Below are positions 2 to 64,000 of a DNA stretch of 64,000 nucleotides, one piece after another; position 1 is the first letter of the stretch, and every line of letters starts with the position of its first letter. The DNA lies in contig NZ_CP042427.1 in assembly GCF_009069125.1 (NCBI RefSeq), forward strand, positions 496,001 through 560,000. The letters run 5' to 3'. The notes beneath the pieces are model-generated. The model saw only the letters and a list, made by a program, of their open reading frames with translations, was not told the DNA's origin and ran no database searches. The DNA comes from Buchnera aphidicola (Aphis fabae) (GTDB lineage Bacteria; Pseudomonadota; Gammaproteobacteria; Enterobacterales; Enterobacteriaceae). Both the position numbers and the translations under genes were made by a program.

Positions 2-1297
2 AATTTAAAAGGTGCAATTACATCTACATTCAATATATATGGTTTTTATTTTTCACCTATTGTTTCTGGTTTAGTTTTAGGAAATAAACTAAATTGGAAT
101 AATATGATTTATTTAAATAGTTTTAAAATGCTCATTAATATAAATGCTAAAAAAAATATTTCTTTCACTATGAAAAAAATAAAGTTTTTGAAATTTTATT
201 TAGATTTTTTAAATGTTAAGTTTCATTGGAATAAGATGAATCAAAATTTTTATTTTTATTTAAAAAATAAAAATTTCACTATAAATTTTATTGTAAATGG
301 AAAATTTAATTATCAAAAAAGATTTTGGAAAGGTATTTTTAAAAAAATAAATATTTCAACTTTTAATAAGCAATGGATTATAAATAATCATCCAGTTGTA
401 TTTTTATATAATTATAAAAATATAGAAATAAATAAAAAAAACGAAATAAAATATAAAAATTCTATTTCTTCTAAAATTCGTATAGTTAAAAAATTTTTAT
501 ATTCGTCTATTTTAAACTCATCTATTAATTTTAAAACTAATTTATTTTTTCAAACAAAATTTATATCAACAACTAAAAAAAAGTTTTCTAATATAAAAAT
601 ATTTTTACATGCTAATAATATAAAATTACAAAAAAAAATAAAAAATAAATCTTTTTTTAAAAAAATATCTTGTTTTAAATTATTTGTAAATTTTAAAAAA
701 AATAATCTTATCACTCATTGGGCGATATATCCATTAAAAAATAAAAATAAAAGATTATTTGGATTTTTAAATGTATTTGATTTTTTTCATAAACAGAATA
801 TACAAGGTAAATATTTTTTATTGAATTTTCCTTCTTCTATTTTAAATTTTTTTATTCCACATTCAACAATAATAGAAGGAACATGTATTGGTAATATAAA
901 GTTTTTAGGCACTTTATATCAGCCTCATATATCGGCTGATATTCATTTAAAAAATTTTTATATTAAAAGTAATAAAATACTAAAATATATTGTTTTGTTT
1001 TTTTATCCTTCTTTAAATTTAATTAAATATGTTAAAATTAATCAATCAATTTTTATAAAGCAAGGAAATGTATTATTTAAATTATATTCAAATCCAAAAA
1101 ATAATCTTCTTCCTTCTTTAGAATGGAATATTTTTTTTAATAGTGATCATGTTCTTTTTTTTGTACTTCCAAAAATGAAATTAAATCTTTGTTCTCAATT
1201 GAATTTACATTATTTTTTATTAAAATATGATTTAATTGGATATTTAAAATCTCATTTATTTTATTTTAAAATTGATGAAAAAAATTTTATTTTTTGA
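2..1297 (+). CDS. tamB: TamB (YtfN) translocation and assembly factor, 5'-truncated by the window edge and apparently 3'-truncated in the genome
   Basis: The frame is open from the window edge, so the start lies outside. TamB is an inner-membrane-anchored periplasmic protein that works with the Omp85 protein TamA in outer-membrane assembly and lipid traffic. The visible part is beta-strand-like. It contains W-K-G-x-F near residue 105 of this fragment and G-T-L-x-Q-P near residue 306, both resembling the E. coli TamB C-terminal half. The next gene, ppa, also supports this, since E. coli has ytfM-ytfN-ytfP-ppa. The frame ends only 23 bases before ppa. By memory of E. coli TamB, more than 200 C-terminal residues, including the most conserved TamA-binding end, are missing. 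Confidence 0.7.
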   Translation, partial: NLKGAITSTFNIYGFYFSPIVSGLVLGNKLNWNNMIYLNSFKMLININAKKNISFTMKKIKFLKFYLDFLNVKFHWNKMNQNFYFYLKNKNFTINFIVNGKFNYQKRFWKGIFKKINISTFNKQWIINNHPVVFLYNYKNIEINKKNEIKYKNSISSKIRIVKKFLYSSILNSSINFKTNLFFQTKFISTTKKKFSNIKIFLHANNIKLQKKIKNKSFFKKISCFKLFVNFKKNNLITHWAIYPLKNKNKRLFGFLNVFDFFHKQNIQGKYFLLNFPSSILNFFIPHSTIIEGTCIGNIKFLGTLYQPHISADIHLKNFYIKSNKILKYIVLFFYPSLNLIKYVKINQSIFIKQGNVLFKLYSNPKNNLLPSLEWNIFFNSDHVLFFVLPKMKLNLCSQLNLHYFLLKYDLIGYLKSHLFYFKIDEKNFIF

Positions 1298-1320
1298 AAA
1301 AATAAACTAAAAATAAATTT

Positions 1321-1860
1321 TTATATATTTTTTTTATTTTTAAATCGATCATATGAAGAACTAATTTCTAATTTTGCAGCTTGATGATTACCCCATCCTA
1401 TAATTTTTGTCCATTTTTCTGTTTCTATTTTTTTATAATATTTGAAAAAATGTTCTATTTGTTTTTTTAATAACTCTGATATATCTGAAATATCATTAAT
1501 ACATTCATATGTTGTACAAATTTTACTTGTTGGAACAGCTATGATTTTAGCATCATCTCCTGATTCGTCTTTCATCTGTAACATTCCAATAGGTTTACAG
1601 TGAATAATTGAATGAGATTGTATAGGATATGGAGATGGCACTAAAACATCTAACGGATCACCATCCATAGATAATGTTTGGTTAATATATCCATAATTAC
1701 AAGGATAAAACATTGGTGTAGATATAAAACGATCTACAAAAAGAAAGCCTGATTCTTTGTCTACTTCATATTTAATAGGAGATGAATTAGATGGTATTTC
1801 AATGATAACATATATATCATTTGGTATATTATCACCTGCAATGATTTTATTATAATTCAT
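1321..1860 (-). CDS. ppa: Inorganic pyrophosphatase
   Basis: Soluble cytoplasmic family I pyrophosphatase. It hydrolyses PPi to two phosphates and so pulls forward tRNA charging and nucleic acid synthesis. At 179 aa it is close to the E. coli enzyme (about 176) and aligns almost end to end. The metal-binding signature D-G-D-P-L-D lies at residues 66-71. The equivalents of E. coli K29, R43 and Y55 are present (K30, R44, Y56), and so is the D-D-A-K segment near 102-105. It converges on tamB with a 23-base gap and diverges from pmbA over 96 bases, so it probably has its own promoter there. Confidence 0.97.
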   Translation of the reverse strand: MNYNKIIAGDNIPNDIYVIIEIPSNSSPIKYEVDKESGFLFVDRFISTPMFYPCNYGYINQTLSMDGDPLDVLVPSPYPIQSHSIIHCKPIGMLQMKDESGDDAKIIAVPTSKICTTYECINDISDISELLKKQIEHFFKYYKKIETEKWTKIIGWGNHQAAKLEISSSYDRFKNKKNI

Positions 1861-1956
1861 TGATATGTACCTTTTTATATTTTTTTATATAGTTATTTAT
1901 AAATTAATATTAATATATCTTACTTATATATTATATATATTATTTAGGAGTTACAA

Positions 1957-3300
1957 ATGAAATTAATTCATCAAATTAAAACTGAAGAAAATTTATTAAT
2001 CAATACAGTAAAAAATACCCTGCAATTAGCAAAGCAAACAACTAATTGTTCTATTGAAGTTTTTATTAAAAAAACAATAGGAATTAATGTTAATGTTAGA
2101 AATAATATTGTAGAAAATATCGAGTTTAATAGTGATGGTGCACTATTTATTACTGTTTATAATAAGTTTGCTAAAGGTAGTGTTTCATCTACAGATTTTA
2201 GTGCTAATAGTATTAAAAAAATGTTAGAAATTGCTGTAGATATTTCTAAAAATTCTTCTTCTGATTTTTTTGTGGGATTACCAGATCTAAAATCACTTTG
2301 TTTTCATGCTAAAGATCTTAATTTATTTCATCCTTCTGAACTGAATATTAAAAATGGAATTGATTTTGCTTCTATAGTAGAAAAAGAAGCATTTAAATTT
2401 GATAAAAGAATTGTTAATAGTGAAGGGAGCTTTTTTAGTAATCATATTACTATAAATGTTTTTGGAAATAGTTTAGGAATGTTAGAAAAATATAAGTCTA
2501 CTCTTTATTCAGCTTATAATTGTATGATTGCAAAAGAAAAAAATTCAATGCAAAGAGATTTTTATTATTCAACTGCTAGAAAAATAGAAAATTTAGAAAA
2601 ACCTGATATTTTAGGTAAAAAAACTGCACAACGTGTTATTGCTCGATTATTTCCTAAAAAAATTAATACTATGAAAGCTTCAATTATATTTTCAAGAGAA
2701 ATATCTGCTAATTTTTTTTCTCATCTTATAACGGCTATTAGTGGTGATAACGTTTATCGTAAATCTACTTTTTTACTTCATGATTTACAAAAAAGAATTT
2801 TTCCTACTTGGTTGAATATTTTAGAGAATCCACATATCCAACAAGGATTAGGCAGCAAACCATTTGATAATGAAGGTGTAACAACTTCTGTAAAATATAT
2901 AGTTGAAAATGGAATATTAAAAACTTGGTTGCTAAATAGTTATAATGCTCGTAAATTAGGATTAATTAGTACTGGGAATTCTGGAGGTATTTATAACTGG
3001 TTAATTTCGCATAAAAATATATCATTTCAAAACTTATTAGAAAATATGAATATCGGATTATTAGTAACGGAATTAATGGGACAAGGAGTAGACATTGTTA
3101 GTGGAAATTATTCACAAGGTGTAATGGGTTTCTGGGTTGAAAATGGGAAAATTCAATATCCAGTAAATGAAATTACTATATCTGGTAATTTAAGAAATAT
3201 GTGGTGTAATATTCTTAGTATTAGTAATGATATTGATATTAGAAATAATATTCAATGTGGTTCTATATTAATATCTGAAATGCAGATTTCAGGAAATTAG
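1957..3300 (+). CDS. pmbA: Metalloprotease-like protein PmbA/TldE
   Basis: PmbA (TldE) forms a heterodimeric metalloprotease with TldD. In E. coli the pair processes microcin B17 and degrades the CcdA antitoxin. In this family TldD carries the zinc site and TldE is the non-metal partner. The 447 aa match the E. coli length (about 450). The C-terminal half holds the typical G-x-x-G-x-x-x-F-D-N-E-G segment and the closing G-N-Y-S-x-G-x-x-G-F-W-V-E-N-G segment. A GGAG-like ribosome site (tttaggagttaca) precedes the ATG. The retained role in an endosymbiont without microcins is unknown; general peptide processing is a guess. Confidence 0.95.
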
Positions 3301-32965: not shown

Positions 32966-33601
32966 ATGAATAAAAAAAAACGTTATGAAATTTTATCATT
33001 ATTTCATGTAAATGAACCAAATCCTATGATAGAATTATTTTTTTCATCAGATTTTGAATTATTAATATCGTTAATATTATCTGCTCAATCAACTGATAAA
33101 ACAGTAAATAAAATAACTTTTATTTTATTTAAAATTGCTAATACCCCTGAAGGTATTTTACAATTAGGTATAGAGAAATTAAAATATTATATTAAAAGTG
33201 TTGGTTTATATAACACTAAAGCTAAATATATTATTCAAACATCTTTTTTACTATTTAATAAATATAATAATAAAATTCCTAAGAATCGTATTGAACTAGA
33301 GTCTTTACCTGGGGTGGGTAGAAAAACAGCAAATATTATTTTAAATGTATTATTTAACAAAAAAACTATTGCGGTAGATACACATGTTTTTCGAGTTTCC
33401 AATCGTACTGGTTTTGCTACAGGAAAAAATGTAATAAAAGTTGAAAAAAAATTAATGAAAGTTGTGCCATCTGTGTTTAAAAAAAATATTCATTTTTGGT
33501 TTGTTTATCATGGACGTTATATTTGTAAAGCAAGAAAACAAAAATGTAATATTTGTTTGATAAGCAAATTTTGTGAATTTATTAATAATGAATCTATATA
33601 A
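32966..33601 (+). CDS. nth: Endonuclease III
   Basis: Nth is a base-excision glycosylase/AP lyase that removes oxidised pyrimidines. The 211 aa equal E. coli, and the catalytic K120 (in the helix-hairpin-helix L-P-G-V-G-R-K-T-A) and D138 (V-D-T-H) sit at the same numbers. The C-terminal 4Fe-4S loop has C-x6-C-x2-C-x5-C. It starts nine bases after rsxE, the same rsx-nth fusion of operons as E. coli. In a repair-poor genome it is one of two repair enzymes visible here (with nfo). Confidence 0.97.
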   Translation: MNKKKRYEILSLFHVNEPNPMIELFFSSDFELLISLILSAQSTDKTVNKITFILFKIANTPEGILQLGIEKLKYYIKSVGLYNTKAKYIIQTSFLLFNKYNNKIPKNRIELESLPGVGRKTANIILNVLFNKKTIAVDTHVFRVSNRTGFATGKNVIKVEKKLMKVVPSVFKKNIHFWFVYHGRYICKARKQKCNICLISKFCEFINNESI

Positions 33602-33616
33602 TATATGAATATATAA

Positions 33617-35614
33617 GTGATTATTGTAGACGTGATTTTGCCTTTTCCAATTAGAGTATATTTTAGCTATATACTTCCATATTCAATGACTCCTATAATT
33701 GGTGGACGTGTTGTAGTACCTTTTCATTCAAAAGATACTATAGGAATTATTGTGGCGATTCATCAAAAAAAAAATATAAATAACTTAAATTTTAAATTTG
33801 TGAAATATATAATTGACCATCAACCAATTATAAATATTTCATTATTAAATATTTTAATGTGGTTGAGTAAGTATTATCATTATCCTATAGGAAGTATATT
33901 GTTTTTCATTTTACCAAATATTTTAAAATCTAGAGAAATAGATGAAAATAACAATAAAGTTTGTTTTAAAATAAATACGAATGAAATTAATCAATTTAAA
34001 ATTAATAAAAAGTTTTTTTTAAGTGAACAAATTTTATTAAAGATAAATAAAATTTTAATGAAAAATTCCTTTAAATTTTGGTTAATATCTGAAATTAATT
34101 TATATATAAAAATTAAATTTTATTTAGGATTATTTCAAAAAATTTTAAAGGAAAATTTACAAATTTTAATTGTTGTTCCTTTTATAAAAGATATATATAG
34201 AACGTTGTTTTTTTTAAAAAAATATTTTCATGTGCCAATTGATATTGTTCATTCTAAATTAAGTGACAAAATATTTTTTCATATATGGATGGAAACTAAA
34301 AATGGAAAAAATTCTATTGTTATAGGAACAAAAAAAAGTATTTTTTTTCCTTTTTTAAAATTAGGTTTAATCGTTATTTTTGAAGAACATAGTTTAATTT
34401 ATAAAAATATAGATAAATTTAAATGTAATATTAGAGATATATCGATATTAAGAGCATATAAAGAAAATATACCTATTATTTTAGATTCAAATACACCTTC
34501 TTTAAAAACATTATATAATGTTATTAATAAAAAAATTTTTTGGATAAATTTTCATCAAAATCATACTTCTTTAATTTTAAAAAATAAAATTATTGATTTA
34601 AAAAAAGAAAGAAGAAGTACTGGCTTATCAGATACTTTAATTAATAAAATTTTTGAAAATATAAAAAAAAAATTTTCAGTTTTATTAATTTTTAATCCAT
34701 CTGATTTGATTTTTTTAAGTCTAATTTGCAATAATTGTAATTGGATTCCTAAATGTGATATTTGCAATGAGTATTATGAAGTTAGTAAATACAATAATAC
34801 TGCATTTTGTAGGCATTGTTTAATTCATTATAAAAAACCTTTATTTTGCTATAATTGTAATTTTTTTCCATTAACTAAATTTAATTTTGGTATAAAAAAA
34901 ATAAAACAAAATATAAAAAAAATATTTCCTAATATACCGATATTATTTTTATTAAACTTAAAAGATATTACAATAAAAAAATTAAATTTAAATATTTCTA
35001 GTTTTTCTATTTTACATTCTGGAATTATTATTACTACAGAAAAAATAGTTCAAAATTATTATTTTCCTAATGTACGATTAATTGGTTTGATTAATATTGA
35101 CTGTTATTTTTTTTCTTTGAAGTTTAATAACACTGAATATTTTGCTCAATTTTATTTTAATCTTGTTAATTTGATACAAAAAAATTCAAAATTTTTAAAT
35201 ATATTTATACAAACATCAATTCCTAATAATAAAGATTTAATTAACATATGTAATCAAAAATATTTATTTTATGCTCGTCAAATATTAATTATAAGAAAAA
35301 AATTTTTATTACCTCCATGGAATTTTCAAGTAGTTTTATATTGTCAAAGTAAAAGTCTTAAAAAAAGTTTTATTTTTTTAAAATTTATATATGTTTTTTT
35401 AAAAAAACAATCTAAAAAAAATAATATCTTATTATGGTTTGTAGGTCCTGAACCTGTTTTTTTTACACCTCAAAAAAAATATATTTATAAATTATTAATA
35501 CAATGTTCTTCACGTGTTTATTTGCAAAAAATATTACGAACATCACTTGAAATTTCAAAATATTTTTCTATTTTTAATGATATTAAATGGTTTTTAAATT
35601 TTGATATGAATTAA
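33617..35614 (+). CDS. priA: PriA primosome protein with degenerate helicase motifs
   Basis: PriA recognises stalled forks and loads the primosome. The N-terminal 3'-DNA-binding domain is well kept (V-I-L-P-F-P near 6-11, Y-Y-H-Y-P-I-G at 86-92), as are eight zinc-ribbon cysteines (371, 374, 380, 383, 398, 401, 411, 414) and the C-terminal L-P-P-W segment. The ATPase is broken. The Walker A position (about 158-168) reads S-E-I-N-L-Y-I-K-I instead of a G-x-x-G-x-G-K-T loop. Walker B is F-E-E-H (255-258) instead of D-E-E-H. The G-T-Q-M-x-x-K-G-H and Q-V-x-G-R-A-G-R motifs are unrecognisable. The frame is uninterrupted at 665 aa (E. coli 732). The start is GTG. Confidence 0.88.
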   Translation: MIIVDVILPFPIRVYFSYILPYSMTPIIGGRVVVPFHSKDTIGIIVAIHQKKNINNLNFKFVKYIIDHQPIINISLLNILMWLSKYYHYPIGSILFFILPNILKSREIDENNNKVCFKINTNEINQFKINKKFFLSEQILLKINKILMKNSFKFWLISEINLYIKIKFYLGLFQKILKENLQILIVVPFIKDIYRTLFFLKKYFHVPIDIVHSKLSDKIFFHIWMETKNGKNSIVIGTKKSIFFPFLKLGLIVIFEEHSLIYKNIDKFKCNIRDISILRAYKENIPIILDSNTPSLKTLYNVINKKIFWINFHQNHTSLILKNKIIDLKKERRSTGLSDTLINKIFENIKKKFSVLLIFNPSDLIFLSLICNNCNWIPKCDICNEYYEVSKYNNTAFCRHCLIHYKKPLFCYNCNFFPLTKFNFGIKKIKQNIKKIFPNIPILFLLNLKDITIKKLNLNISSFSILHSGIIITTEKIVQNYYFPNVRLIGLINIDCYFFSLKFNNTEYFAQFYFNLVNLIQKNSKFLNIFIQTSIPNNKDLINICNQKYLFYARQILIIRKKFLLPPWNFQVVLYCQSKSLKKSFIFLKFIYVFLKKQSKKNNILLWFVGPEPVFFTPQKKYIYKLLIQCSSRVYLQKILRTSLEISKYFSIFNDIKWFLNFDMN

Positions 35615-35716: not shown

Positions 35717-36991
35717 ATGAATCATGTTAATTTAGTTGATGAATTAAGACAACGCAATTTAATATCTCATGTTACAAATGAAAGTATGTTAAAAAAAAAT
35801 ATTGAGAATAATTCTATTTCACTTTATTGCGGATTTGATCCTACTGAAGAAAGCTTACATGTAGGTCATCTTTTACCCTTAATTACTCTTAAAAGATTTC
35901 AAATGCAAGGTCATATACCTGTTATTTTAATTGGAGGTGCTACAAGTCTTATTGGTGATCCTAGTTTTAAAGAAAAAGAACGTTTATTAAATTTTGATAA
36001 TAAAATTGATATATGGTCAATAAAAATAAGTAAACAAATATCTTCTTTTTTGGATATTAATTCTAGTATGAATCGTGCAATTATATTAAATAATAAAAAG
36101 TGGTTTGAAAAGATTAACATCTTGTCATTTCTACGTGATGTTGGTAAACATTTTTCAATTAATACTATGATTAATAGAGAAGCAGTAAAGCAACGTATTA
36201 AAAGATCAGATCAAGGTATTTCTTTTACAGAGTTTTCATATAATTTATTACAGGCATATGATTTTTTTATATTAAATAAAAAAAAACAAGTATCTCTTCA
36301 AATTGGTGGATCAGATCAATGGGGAAATATTTCTGCAGGTATGCACTTAATAAATCGAATTTCTAAAAAAGAAGTTTATGGTTTAACATTGCCTTTGCTT
36401 GTACAATCTAATGGTATTAAATTTGGTAAAACAGAATCTGGAACTATTTGGTTAGATTCTAAAAAAACAACTCCTTATAAGTTTTATCAGTTTTGGAAAA
36501 ATATAGAAGATTCTAATGTTTATAGTTTTTTAAAATTATTTACTTTTTTAGATTGTAATGAAATTAATAAAAGAGAAATAAACAAATATAAAAATAATCA
36601 AATTATTAATGATAAATCTTATTTATCTAAATATATGACTCGTTTAGTACATGGTGAAGAAAATTTATTAGCAGCAGAAAGAATTACAGACATTCTTTTT
36701 TTAAAGAATATACACGAGATCAAAAAATCTGATTTACAACAACTGAAAAAAGATGGAATACCTTCTATTGAAGTATATCAAATAAAAGATTTACAAGAAG
36801 CATTAGTATTATGCTCACTAGCTCAATCTCGAACACAAGCAAAAAACATGATAATATCTAATTCTATATCTATTAATACTAATAAAATTATAAATAAAAA
36901 TCATGTTTTTCATGATAATGATAAATTATTCAATCAATTTACTTTAATTTCAAGGGGAAAAAAAAATCATTGCCTTATAGATTGGAAATAA
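35717..36991 (+). CDS. tyrS: Tyrosyl-tRNA synthetase
   Basis: Class I synthetase for tRNA-Tyr, a homodimer. The 424 aa equal E. coli. H-V-G-H at 48-51 and K-F-G-K-T-E near 235 are the two ATP-binding signatures. Y37 and the G-F-D-P-T segment form the tyrosine pocket, and the C-terminal 70 residues are the S4-like RNA-binding domain (S-R-T-Q-A-K-N). A good AAAAGG ribosome site precedes the ATG. It converges on sufA with a 30-base gap. Confidence 0.97.
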   Translation: MNHVNLVDELRQRNLISHVTNESMLKKNIENNSISLYCGFDPTEESLHVGHLLPLITLKRFQMQGHIPVILIGGATSLIGDPSFKEKERLLNFDNKIDIWSIKISKQISSFLDINSSMNRAIILNNKKWFEKINILSFLRDVGKHFSINTMINREAVKQRIKRSDQGISFTEFSYNLLQAYDFFILNKKKQVSLQIGGSDQWGNISAGMHLINRISKKEVYGLTLPLLVQSNGIKFGKTESGTIWLDSKKTTPYKFYQFWKNIEDSNVYSFLKLFTFLDCNEINKREINKYKNNQIINDKSYLSKYMTRLVHGEENLLAAERITDILFLKNIHEIKKSDLQQLKKDGIPSIEVYQIKDLQEALVLCSLAQSRTQAKNMIISNSISINTNKIINKNHVFHDNDKLFNQFTLISRGKKNHCLIDWK

Positions 36992-59778: not shown

Positions 59779-62700
59779 TTAATGATTTAAATTTATTTGT
59801 TTATGTATGTCTTGTAATGATGTAATATTTTTTGTTGGATCTTCATTTAATGCCATAACAGTAGCAAATGCACCATTAATGGTGGTATCATAGTGTACTT
59901 TATATTGTAAAGCACTTCGACAAATTAGTTTTGCATCTTTTACACCTTGATGACAAGATGTTGTATTTACAATATATGCATATTCTCCATTTTTTAAACG
60001 ATCTTGGATATGAGGTCTACCTTCATATACTTTGTTAACTAGTCTAGAAATAATTCCAGCTTTTTTTAAAGCTATAGATGTACCTTTCGTCGCGTCAATT
60101 AAAAAGCCAAATTTTTGTAATTTTACAGCTAAATTTATAATTCTTTTTTTATCATCATCTCTTACTGAAAGTAACACACGACCTGATTTTTTCATATTGG
60201 TATGAGCGCCGAGCATTGCTTTAGAAAATGCTTCCGAAAAATTTTTTCCAATACCCATTACTTCTCCTGTAGAGCGCATTTCTGGTCCTAATATAGGATC
60301 TACACCTTGAAATTTATCAAAAGGTAGAACTGCTTCTTTTACTGAAAAGAATGATGGAATAATTTCTTTTGTAAATCCTTGTTCTTCCAATGTTTTACCA
60401 TACATAACACGTACGGAGATTTTTGCTAATGCTAATCCTGTTGCTTTTGATACAAATGGAACTGTTCGTGCGGCTCTTGGGTTTACTTCAATAATGTATA
60501 TTTCATTTTTTTTGATTGCAAATTGAACATTCATTAATCCTCTTACAGATAATTCAAATGCTAGTTTTTTTACTTGCTTTCTAATTTTATCTTGAATTTT
60601 TTTTGTTAAGGTATATGCTGGTAAAGAACAGGCAGAATCTCCAGAATGCACTCCAGCTTGTTCAATATGTTCCATTATACCTCCAATTAAAACTGTTTTT
60701 CCATCACAGATAGCATCTACATCTACTTCTATTGCATAATTTAAATATTGATCTAATAGAACTGGAGTAGTTTTTTTGTTTTTTAACATTATTTTAAAAT
60801 AGTTGTCTAATTCAGATGGTTCATAAACAATTTCCATTGCTCTACCACCTAGAACATAAGATGGTCTAACCATAATAGGATAACCAATTTGTAGTGCTTT
60901 TTGATGAGCTTCTTTTAAAGTTAAAACAGTAGCATTTAACGGTTGTTTTAAATTTAATTTTGTTACAATTTTTTGAAAGCGATTGCGATCTTCTGCTTTA
61001 TCAATAGCATCTGGTTGTGTACCAATAATTGGTATTCCTTCTTTTTCAAATGCTCGTGCTAATTTTAATGGTGTTTGTCCACCGTATTGAATAATGACAC
61101 CATTAGGTTTTTCAATTTTAACTATTTCTAAAACATTTTCTAATGTAATTGGTTCAAAGTAAAGTCGATCAGATATATCATAATCTGTAGATACTGTTTC
61201 CGGGTTACAATTAATCATAATTGCTTCAAAACCATCTTCTCTTAATGCTTGTGCAGCGTGTACACAACAATAATCAAATTCTATTCCTTGTCCGATTCTA
61301 TTAGGTCCACCTCCTATTATAATAATTTTTTTATTATTCTTAGTTGGATTAGCTTCACATTCATCTTCCCAAGTGGAATACATATATGCTGTTTCAGTAG
61401 AAAATTCTGCTGAACATGTATCAATTCTTTTATAAACAGGATGTAAATTTAATTCATATCGAAGATTACGTATATCATGTTCTTTTTTATTAGTTAACAT
61501 TGCTATACGTAAATCTGAAAAACCTTTTCTTTTAATAAAATATAAAAATTTATAATTTAATCCAATAAATCCATTTTTTTTAATTTTTTCTTCTAAAAGA
61601 ATTATTTCTTGAATTTGTACAAGAAACCAAGGATCAATTGATGTTAATTCAAATACATCTTTTATGGACATTCCTAATCTAAATGCATCACCGATATACC
61701 AAATTCTATCTGCACCAGCTTCTTTTAACTCATGTCTAACTTTTATTAAACATTGTGGATCTAATTGAGATATTTTAGAATTAAAACCACATACTCCAAT
61801 TTCTAATCCTCGAATTGCTTTTTGTATTGATTCTTGAAATGTTCTTCCTATTGCCATGACTTCTCCGACAGATTTCATTTGAGTTGTCAATCTATCGTTG
61901 CATCCTAAAAATTTTTCAAAATTAAATCTTGGAATTTTAGTAACTATATAATCTATTGATGGTTCAAAGGATGCTGTTGTATTAATTCCTGTAATATCAT
62001 TAGCAAGTTCATCTAATGTATACCCTACTGCTAATTTTGCAGCTATTTTTGCAATGGGAAACCCTGTAGCTTTAGATGCCAGTGCAGAAGAACGAGAAAC
62101 TCGAGGATTCATTTCAATAACTATCATACGACCGTTTTTTGGATTAATAGCAAATTGTACGTTAGACCCTCCAGTTTCCACTCCAATTTCTTGCAATATT
62201 GCCATAGATGCATTTCTCATAATCTGATATTCTTTATCAGTTAAAGTTTGTGCTGGAGCTACAGTAATTGAATCTCCTGTATGAATTCCCATGGGGTCTA
62301 AATTTTCAATTGAACAAACAATAATACAATTATTATTTTTATCTCGTACAACTTCCATTTCATATTCTTTCCAACCAATTAAAGATTCATCAATTAATAA
62401 TTCAGTAGTAGGAGATAATTTTAATCCTCGTTCACAAATTTCTTCGAATTCTTCTTGATTATAAGCTATTCCTCCACCATTTCCACCCATAGTAAAAGAA
62501 GGTCTAATAATACATGGAAAACCTACATTTTTTAATACTAATAATGCTTCTTTAATGTTGTGTGCAATACCGCATTTTGCAGTTTTTAAATTAAGTTTTT
62601 TCATTGAAAGTTCAAATAATTTTCTATCTTCTGCTTTCTTAATTGCATTGATAGTTGCACCTATAATTTTAACATTAAATTTTTTTAGTATTCCTCTTTT

Positions 62701-63009
62701 ATTTAGTTCCAATGCGCAATTAAGTGCTGTTTGACCACCCATTGTTGGAAGTAATGCATCCGGACGTTCTTTAATAATAATTTTTTCTACTATTTTCCAA
62801 TGAATAGGTTCAATATATGTAGCATCTGCCATATATGGATCAGTCATAATAGTAGCAGGATTAGAATTAACAAGAATGATTTTATAACCTTCTTCATGCA
62901 GCGCTTTACATGCTTGTGCACCCGAATAATCAAATTCACATGCTTGTCCGATTACGATAGGACCTGCACCAAGAATTAAAATGGATTTTATATCAGTAGA
63001 TTTAGGCAT
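59779..63009 (-). CDS. carB: Carbamoyl-phosphate synthase large subunit
   Basis: CarB makes carbamoyl phosphate from bicarbonate, two ATP and ammonia supplied by CarA. The product feeds arginine and pyrimidines. The 1076 aa equal E. coli (1073). Two ATP-grasp halves are evident: G-A-G-P-I-V-I-G-Q at 14-22 and G-G-G-P-N-R-I-G-Q near 565, with F-T-M-G-G-N-G-G and Y-V-L-G-G-R-A-M as the two nucleotide loops. The C-terminal MGS-like allosteric domain (from about 935) is present, so ornithine and UMP control is possible. It lies 13 bases after carA. Confidence 0.98.
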
Positions 63010-63022
63010 TTTTTTTTCCTAA

Positions 63023-64000
63023 TTAATTACTGAATTTTGTTTGATTGAGTAATTTTATAAAATAATCAAATAAATACGAAGCATCATGTGGTCCTGGACT
63101 TGCTTCTGGATGTCCTTGAAAGCTAAAAGCTAGTTTATCAGTTAAACGTAATCCTTGTACTGTACCATCAAAAAGAGAAGTATGTGTTATAGAAATATTA
63201 TTTGGCATATGTTTTGTATCAACAGTAAAACTATGATTTTGTGAAGTAATAATTACACGGTTTGTTTTTAGTTCTTTAACTGGATGATTTCCACCATGAT
63301 GACCAAATTTCATTTTAATGATATCAGCTCCACTAGCCAATGCAAGTAGTTGATGTCCTAAACATATTCCAAATATTGGAATATTAATTTTTAAGAAATT
63401 TTGAATAGATTTAATAGCATATTGACATGGTCTTGGATCACCTGGACCATTAGATAAGAAAATTCCATCAGGAGCTAAATCTAATACTGTTTTTGCATTC
63501 GTTGTAGCAGGTACTATAGTTAAATAACACCCTCGATCTACTAACATACGTAAAATATTTCGTTTAATACCGAAATCATATACAATAATATGAAATCGAA
63601 ATTTTTTTTCAGAATATAGTTTTTTTTTGTTAATAATATATGTTCTTTCATTCCAATTATAAACGACTTTAGTAGTTACTTTTTTGGCTAAATCTAATCC
63701 TTGCAAACTTAAACAATTTTTTGCGTTTTTATGTGCTATAATGTAGTTTTCTTTTTTATCTTCTATAATACATCCATTTTGAGATCCTTTTGTGCGTAAA
63801 ATACGTGTTAATTTTCTTGTATCGATATCAGATATTGCAATAATATTGTTTTCTTTTAAATAAGAAGAAAAACTTTTTTCACTACGATAATTACTAGATA
63901 TTGGAGACATATCTCGAATAATTAAACCTCTTATGTGAATTTTAGATGATTCTTCGTCATTTTTGTTTGTTCCAATATTTCCAATATGAGGATGTGTTAG
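63023..64000 (-). CDS. carA: Carbamoyl-phosphate synthase small subunit (5' end beyond the window)
   Basis: Glutaminase subunit that releases ammonia into the CarB tunnel. The frame is open to the right edge, where it reads [11 protein letters not shown], which corresponds to about residue 58 of the E. coli protein (382 aa). The first ~57 residues and the promoter are therefore outside. The class I amidotransferase site is intact: Cys in G-I-C-L-G-H-Q, and His and Glu in [17 protein letters not shown] and H-H-G-G-N-H-P-V are also visible. The carA-carB order and spacing follow E. coli. Confidence 0.97.

Follow-up and report, generated by a model that had tools for sequence, protein, structure and literature searches.

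A PriA protein with a predicted dead helicase motor, apparently maintained by purifying selection, in Buchnera aphidicola

Background

The priA locus of Buchnera aphidicola (Aphis fabae) raises the question of why a gene for the replication restart protein PriA is kept as an uninterrupted reading frame when the characteristic sequences of its helicase motor have been lost. It has long been asked whether cells need the helicase of PriA beyond the laboratory, since Escherichia coli mutants lacking it show nearly normal growth. In Deinococcus radiodurans, a pseudohelicase form of PriA was described and assayed, and the phylum of this species is presented, in the accessible text of that report, as a notable exception to the conservation of the motifs (PMC4504706), and a pseudohelicase of this kind is thus not new in itself. 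For Buchnera or other symbionts, a search of the open-access literature, which leaves subscription journals uncovered, returned no report of motif loss in PriA; none is present in the accessible parts of PMC1193525, PMC4224334, PMC2659769, PMC3620526 and PMC4479817, and the word priA is absent from a study of Buchnera genomes (PMC11193766).

Here, we describe the priA gene in a window of 64,000 nucleotides (positions 496001-560000) of a 634,831-base Buchnera genome, together with its relatives in the genus and in other small genomes, the selection acting on its domains and its partner proteins.

Results and discussion

The priA frame is intact and the motor motifs are degraded

All features given below lie on the forward strand of the window. 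A GTG-started open reading frame of 665 codons (33617-35614) matches TIGR00595 with 251.8 bits (cut-off 230.35) and aligns with solved PriA chains, confirming the uninterrupted frame reported in the initial annotation. Its neighbours in the open reading frame list, at 32966-33601 upstream and 35717-36991 downstream, we take to be nth and tyrS, and the order nth-priA-tyrS was used as a marker of Buchnera. At the end of the window (60001-64000), GC content rises to 0.295 and GC skew passes from positive to -0.10, a shift that may mark an origin, a terminus or an RNA operon.

The 3'-DNA-binding domain (residues 1-104, 33617-33928) is well recognizable, with a PF17764 match of 78.7 bits (cut-off 22.7) at residues 5-100, and all eight zinc-binding cysteines are present in the cysteine-rich region (34724-34861), as had been read at first sight. 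The putative C-terminal domain (residues 567-663, 35315-35605) matches PF18074 over positions 1-94 of 95, at 21.8 bits and hence below the cut-off of 26.9. The earlier statement that the N-terminal DNA-binding region is kept holds for the 3'-DNA-binding domain and fails for the winged helix, which together with its linker is reduced to a scar at 33929-34009 (borders approximate), with 18 residues in place of the 77 of E. coli (109-185).

In the alignment with PriA of E. coli K-12, GVTGSGKTE of Walker A is replaced by EINLYIKIK, within the remnant ISEINLYIKIK (34085-34117) that has lost the glycines and retained the lysine, and DEEH of Walker B by FEEH (34379-34390), from which the aspartate is gone. 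The motif III remnant LDSNTPSLKTL (34481-34513) retains its S and T. Further on, E. coli GTQMLAKGHHFP reads TTEKIVQNYYFP in the window protein, with the motif V remnant IIITTEKIVQNYYFP lying at 35024-35068, and QVAGRAGRAG reads NLVNLIQKNS, the motif VI remnant NLVNLIQKNSKF (35159-35194) having lost the arginines. The letters first quoted for Walker A and FEEH were correct. Scanning the whole protein for G-x4-GK[ST] and DE-x-H revealed neither, so the P-loop or D-E-x-H elsewhere in PriA that had been named beforehand as counter-evidence does not exist.

To describe the loss across the genus, 27 motif positions were scored, each invariant in E. coli and five other large genomes (taken as free-living). 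None of the 27 intact genus genes has G224, G227, S228, D320, G355, G538, Q580, G583, R584 or R587, and ten further positions are retained in 0-3 of the 27. The remainder is well kept: the equivalent of K230 is lysine in 26 genes and arginine in one, E321 is found in 25 of 27, E322 in all and H323 in 26, and S356 and T358 are universal, with T539 in 26. 'Erased', the word first chosen for these motifs, thus fits the glycines, D320, R584 and R587; it does not fit the lysine, EEH and the S and T of motif III. Chance or misalignment as the cause was rejected, because the same columns are altered in 27/27 intact relatives, none of which has a P-loop pattern at another place in the protein; nor does this pattern occur in the long pieces of the nine frame-broken genus genes.

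The sequences expected of an active SF2 motor (GxGKT, DEEH, GTQM and QxxGRAGR for motifs I, II, V and VI) are thus not found. The parts predicted to contact phosphate and magnesium and to sense hydrolysis are gone and some of the presumed inner active-site scaffold is left, and the helicase chemistry has very probably been lost from the window gene. It might be argued that the retained lysine, EEH and motif III residues still provide weak or altered nucleotide binding, as K230 is lysine in 43 of 44 and E321 glutamate in 37 of 44 sequences when the genus, deeper Buchnera-type and other eroded groups are taken together, and S356 and T358 never vary within the genus set. This appears very improbable for a genus without the glycine-rich loop, D320 and the motif VI arginines; moreover, the high AT content of these genes favours lysine, and 4 of 21 large-genome-invariant lysines are retained overall. 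Retention of the cysteines exceeds chance: each of the eight is present in 90% or more of the 27 genes, a level reached by 101 of 598 other positions invariant in the six large-genome sequences.

All domains, including the dead motor lobes, are constrained

Selection was estimated with a one-omega codon model on the 27 intact genus genes, with approximate domain borders in E. coli numbering. Omega of the whole gene is 0.136, and fixing it at 1 worsens the fit by 1453 log units. By domain, omega is 0.157 for the 3'-DNA-binding domain, 0.201 for the winged helix, 0.134 for HD1, 0.114 for the cysteine-rich region, 0.133 for HD2 and 0.141 for the C-terminal domain; omega = 1 (kappa held) is worse by 34-421 log units per domain, 34 being the value for the winged helix. 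The control genes Nth (0.080) and TyrS (0.072) are under tighter constraint, PriA omega being 1.7-1.9 times that of both in the same set.

As synonymous sites are probably saturated across the full set, the subclades matter: priA omega is 0.153 in the 8-genome clade of the window (domains 0.116-0.176, winged-helix remnant excluded), 0.126 in a 5-genome clade (domains 0.065-0.156) and 0.122 in a 3-genome set, and in the 27-gene set, the 8-genome clade and the 5-genome clade alike, omega = 1 gives a far poorer fit. Values of 1.000 returned for the winged-helix remnant (29 codons, 8-genome clade) and for the DnaT linker (12 columns) were disregarded, as they apparently represent the starting value of the optimiser. 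In a neutral simulation at 0.1 changes per site, at least 11 stops arose in each of 200 runs, and three close pairs show third-position differences of 13-16%. The absence of stops in itself is no proof, since the 27 genes were selected for open frames, and the argument consequently rests on omega, plus the finding of at most one frame change in 35 of 36 genus genes.

Omega is thus far from 1 and stops have not accumulated as in a decaying pseudogene; the domain-wise comparison, which had been proposed as a check against a pseudogene relaxed everywhere, found constraint in every domain. It did not bear out the accompanying idea that selection acts on the domains separately, for HD1 and HD2 are as constrained as the 3'-DNA-binding domain. 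With dead motor lobes under the same constraint as the DNA-binding domain, the data agree neither with a simple pseudogene nor with selection that differs by domain, and we infer from these substitution patterns that the window priA is maintained by purifying selection despite its dead motor.

Winged-helix loss, broken frames and the case for decay

The winged helix is both the loosest domain in the full set and the part that is deleted. Its block measures 18-20 residues across the 8-genome clade of the window, whereas 18 of the 27 intact genus genes have a block of 68-78 residues; elsewhere it is shortened to 40 residues in G030 and 30 in G122, and most of it is absent from G150 and G136. Where whole, it is constrained, with an omega of 0.155 in the 5-genome clade. 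In published structures, according to the accessible part of the report, this domain sits on the parental duplex and is mobile (PMC10175261).

A priA match is present in all 36 genus genomes, as a single open frame in 27 and frame-broken in nine. Eight of the nine broken genes (L011, L015, L019, L024, L027, L031, L035 and L036, in each of which both pieces are otherwise open) have a single frame change, and the overlap between the two frames contains a run of 9-12 A or T; the ninth, of G008, has two. Three of the eight deeper Buchnera-type genes discussed below are also frame-broken, each with a run of 10. Six of the eight single breaks lie near the winged helix, where A/T runs are densest too (4.8 per kb, compared to 0.55-2.33). 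Assembly error, recent mutation and rescue by slippage cannot be told apart as the cause of such breaks; one study of transcription errors in Buchnera presents, in its accessible text, no case of a restored frame (PMC5574713). Since 8 of 9 broken genes carry one change at an A/T run of at least 9, the breaks are weak evidence of decay.

These data bear on the view that priA is dispensable and is being neutralised slowly, with most frames still open. It can draw on the nine broken genes out of 36, on the repeated loss of the winged helix, on the several stages of erosion seen in other symbionts and on two genomes in which the gene is a remnant or was not found: G053 has a decayed priA remnant between nth and tyrS (L165, 4755-7596), which covers the first motor lobe only, and in G134, possibly not a Buchnera, priA was found neither by profile nor in 60 kb including tyrS. 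The G053 remnant, however, also illustrates what a released priA looks like, its 2842 bases containing 73-112 stops in each frame, and the low omegas of the full set and both clades, the much worse fit of omega = 1, the single run-associated change in 8 of 9 broken genes and the eight-cysteine pattern kept in 9 of 9 speak against release in the genus, so that we hold slow neutralisation to be unlikely.

Motor erosion extends beyond the genus

Outside the genus, priA adjoins tyrS in eight more genomes belonging to other genera of the family, four of which also have nth adjoining. None of the eight deeper Buchnera-type genes has a P-loop and six of them still have D320, which suggests that the P-loop was probably lost first. 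One priA search covered 40 small genomes and gave 26 matches at 1e-19; the match of G144, limited to profile positions 1-117 and resembling another helicase, was excluded. Of the others, eight are the Buchnera-type genomes just described, six symbiont genomes (G123, G068, G206, G117, G157 and G166) have essentially whole motifs, and eleven show partial or complete erosion.

A close pair is instructive. PriA of G215, which over 731 residues shows no difference from the protein of the Arsenophonus endosymbiont of Ceratovacuna japonica, has GSDKTE and an intact DEEH, and PriA of G082, from the same GTDB genus and 61% identical, reads NSFSKIK, a pair that, judged by these motifs, appears to show erosion at its start. 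Together with the eroded PriA of other symbionts, it indicates that erosion arose more than once. A table of 56 sequences, made up of 27 genes from the genus, 8 deep ones, 9 from other eroded genomes, 6 with intact motifs and 6 from large genomes, shows the eight cysteines in every one; L085, L099 and L100 were left out of it. Two of these latter genes show a peculiarity of their own: L085 (G150, priA pieces 1000-3018) has in-frame TGA codons at the positions of E. coli PriA tryptophans W333 and W441, and L099 (G136, priA 1063-2655) has a single TGA at an apparent tryptophan position and no TGG in priA. An SSB-like match in G136 contains three TGA codons, and UGA may be read as tryptophan in both genomes.

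DnaT and DnaC are kept and PriB and PriC are not detected in the genus

DnaT is encoded in all 36 genus genomes and lies in each beside an open reading frame of 246-252 amino acids matching PF01695, which was taken as DnaC. PriB above the profile cut-off was found in none of the 36, the weaker match to its profile being an open reading frame of 172-204 amino acids taken as SSB, and none of the 36 has a PriC match. The E. coli PriA residues D438, T482 and H483, on which PriB docks, are kept in 0 of 27 genes, and they are gone from the cysteine-rich region of the window protein. The corresponding positions read E/T/Q, E/T/H and D/T/N in three motif-intact symbionts with PriB and E/I/G in the partly eroded G101, which has PriB as well; as D438 and H483 vary in PriB-bearing symbionts too, the loss of the three residues is a weak sign of PriB loss.

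DnaT was analysed in 28 genes (L101-L128) of the 36, following residue roles, including PriB binding by linker residues D66 and D70, given in the accessible parts of two reports (PMC13377028, PMC10175261). None of the 28 has the linker stretch that contains D66 and D70 in E. coli, in an alignment that is short here and uncertain in gap placement, and the proteins measure 157-169 amino acids compared to 179 in E. coli. The shortened linker thus runs parallel to the absence of PriB in all genes examined. In the N-terminal domain, F42 and Y43 are kept in 28/28, V10 and F35 not generally. The C-terminal domain has an omega of 0.067 and a mean identity of 56% to E. coli. We regard this strong constraint on a DnaT that seems to lack the PriB-binding stretch as the best evidence for a working PriB-free pathway.

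A platform role for PriA and its alternatives

On these sequence comparisons we lean, if only slightly, towards a PriA pseudohelicase that would mark forks and position DnaT, DnaC and DnaB without PriB. PriA would bind abandoned forks through its 3'-DNA-binding domain, its zinc module and second lobe would hold the lagging single strand, and it would provide a surface for DnaT to dock on, nucleate and bring in DnaC-DnaB, with neither unwinding nor PriB involved. DnaT docks on HD2 and the C-terminal domain of PriA, according to the accessible part of PMC13377028. Without unwinding, such a platform could act only on forks of which the lagging strand is already single-stranded and the model, if correct, requires that the PriA-DnaT step of Buchnera has become independent of PriB.

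The latter point is where the analogy with E. coli, drawn in the initial annotation from Walker A mutants, proves weaker than claimed. The accessible accounts of priA300 and K230A agree with Buchnera in that an ATPase-dead PriA is able to assemble the primosome (PMC9713433, PMC3334882, PMC10175261). In vitro, however, DnaB loading by K230A PriA took place with PriB and DnaT and required the PriB site (PMC10175261), and in vivo, by these same accounts, helicase-dead PriA (priA300) depends on PriB and performs very poorly in its absence (PMC9713433, PMC3334882), resembling a priA null (PMC3334882). These alleles are laboratory point mutants reliant on PriB, whereas the Buchnera protein is natural, long kept and unaccompanied by detectable PriB or PriC. 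The reading of PriA as a scaffold and not a helicase therefore stands in so far as the motor is very probably gone, the gene is constrained and DnaT and DnaC are kept, and fails in the domain-wise selection that was attached to it.

The partners in other small genomes show a more varied picture. Among 52 of them, DnaT was found in 13 and PriB over the cut-off in nine, and a DnaC-sized match occurs in 8 of the 27 genomes searched for it, namely all seven with DnaT plus G045. DnaT and DnaC are kept without PriA in G053 and G134. Conversely, none of DnaT, PriB and DnaC was detected beside the eroded PriA of G040, G190, G098, G122, G082, G050, G150 and G136, erosion being only partial in G050 and G150 and short, fast-evolving proteins being able to escape profiles. 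Co-occurrence of PriA and DnaT across symbionts was considered as proof of mechanism and found unconvincing. A set that is the reverse of that of Buchnera, motor-intact PriA and PriB with DnaT and DnaC undetected, was seen in G117, G123 and G166.

The eight genomes with eroded PriA and no detectable DnaT, PriB or DnaC indicate that DnaT loading is not the general reason for retention. A dead PriA might instead be kept because it binds forks or single strands, contacts DnaB or protects structures. The eight cysteines are present in all eight of these genomes (six tabulated; G150 and G136 read by eye), and the PriA of D. radiodurans, a genome in which the accessible text reports no clear priB or dnaT homologs, lacks ATPase activity and binds DNA and DnaB (PMC4504706). 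For the genus of the window we nevertheless consider a role apart from DnaT rather unlikely, given the presence of DnaT and DnaC in 36/36 genomes and the strong constraint on DnaT.

Comparison with known systems

The closest parallel to the Buchnera platform proposed above is the Deinococcus protein, as described in the accessible part of PMC4504706: both have degraded motifs I and II and no clear PriB. Deinococcus PriA reportedly binds both forks and DnaB although it has no ATPase. The Walker lysine has become arginine in Deinococcus, which has no clear DnaT, and is still lysine in 26 of 27 Buchnera genes, with arginine in one. Unlike Deinococcus, Buchnera has DnaT and DnaC, and its PriA has lost the glycines, the aspartate and the motif VI arginines, with the winged helix deleted in the clade of the window. 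Among insect symbionts, Moranella endobia likewise has a reduced primosome, consisting of PriA and PriB (PMC3620526), but it keeps the PriA motifs and PriB and is without DnaT and DnaC, the opposite of what Buchnera retains. Wolbachia ruvA offers another case of an impaired genome-maintenance protein of which the gene is still present; there, the accessible text reports that in a subset of the strains selection has weakened to the point of neutrality (PMC4224334), whereas constraint on Buchnera priA persists.

Conclusions

As a tentative and, on balance, doubtful generalisation, obligate insect symbionts may repeatedly have made PriA a passive fork clamp, with restart in Buchnera relying on a PriA scaffold and DnaT-DnaC without PriB, PriC or unwinding, and with a DnaT adapted to the loss of PriB. 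The genus offers a natural experiment across a whole symbiont group, in which the motor appears gone and the rest of the protein, including the motor lobes, still seems to be under selection. With neither PriB nor PriC detectable, it also presents a minimal restart system that might allow the PriA-DnaT step to be examined in isolation.
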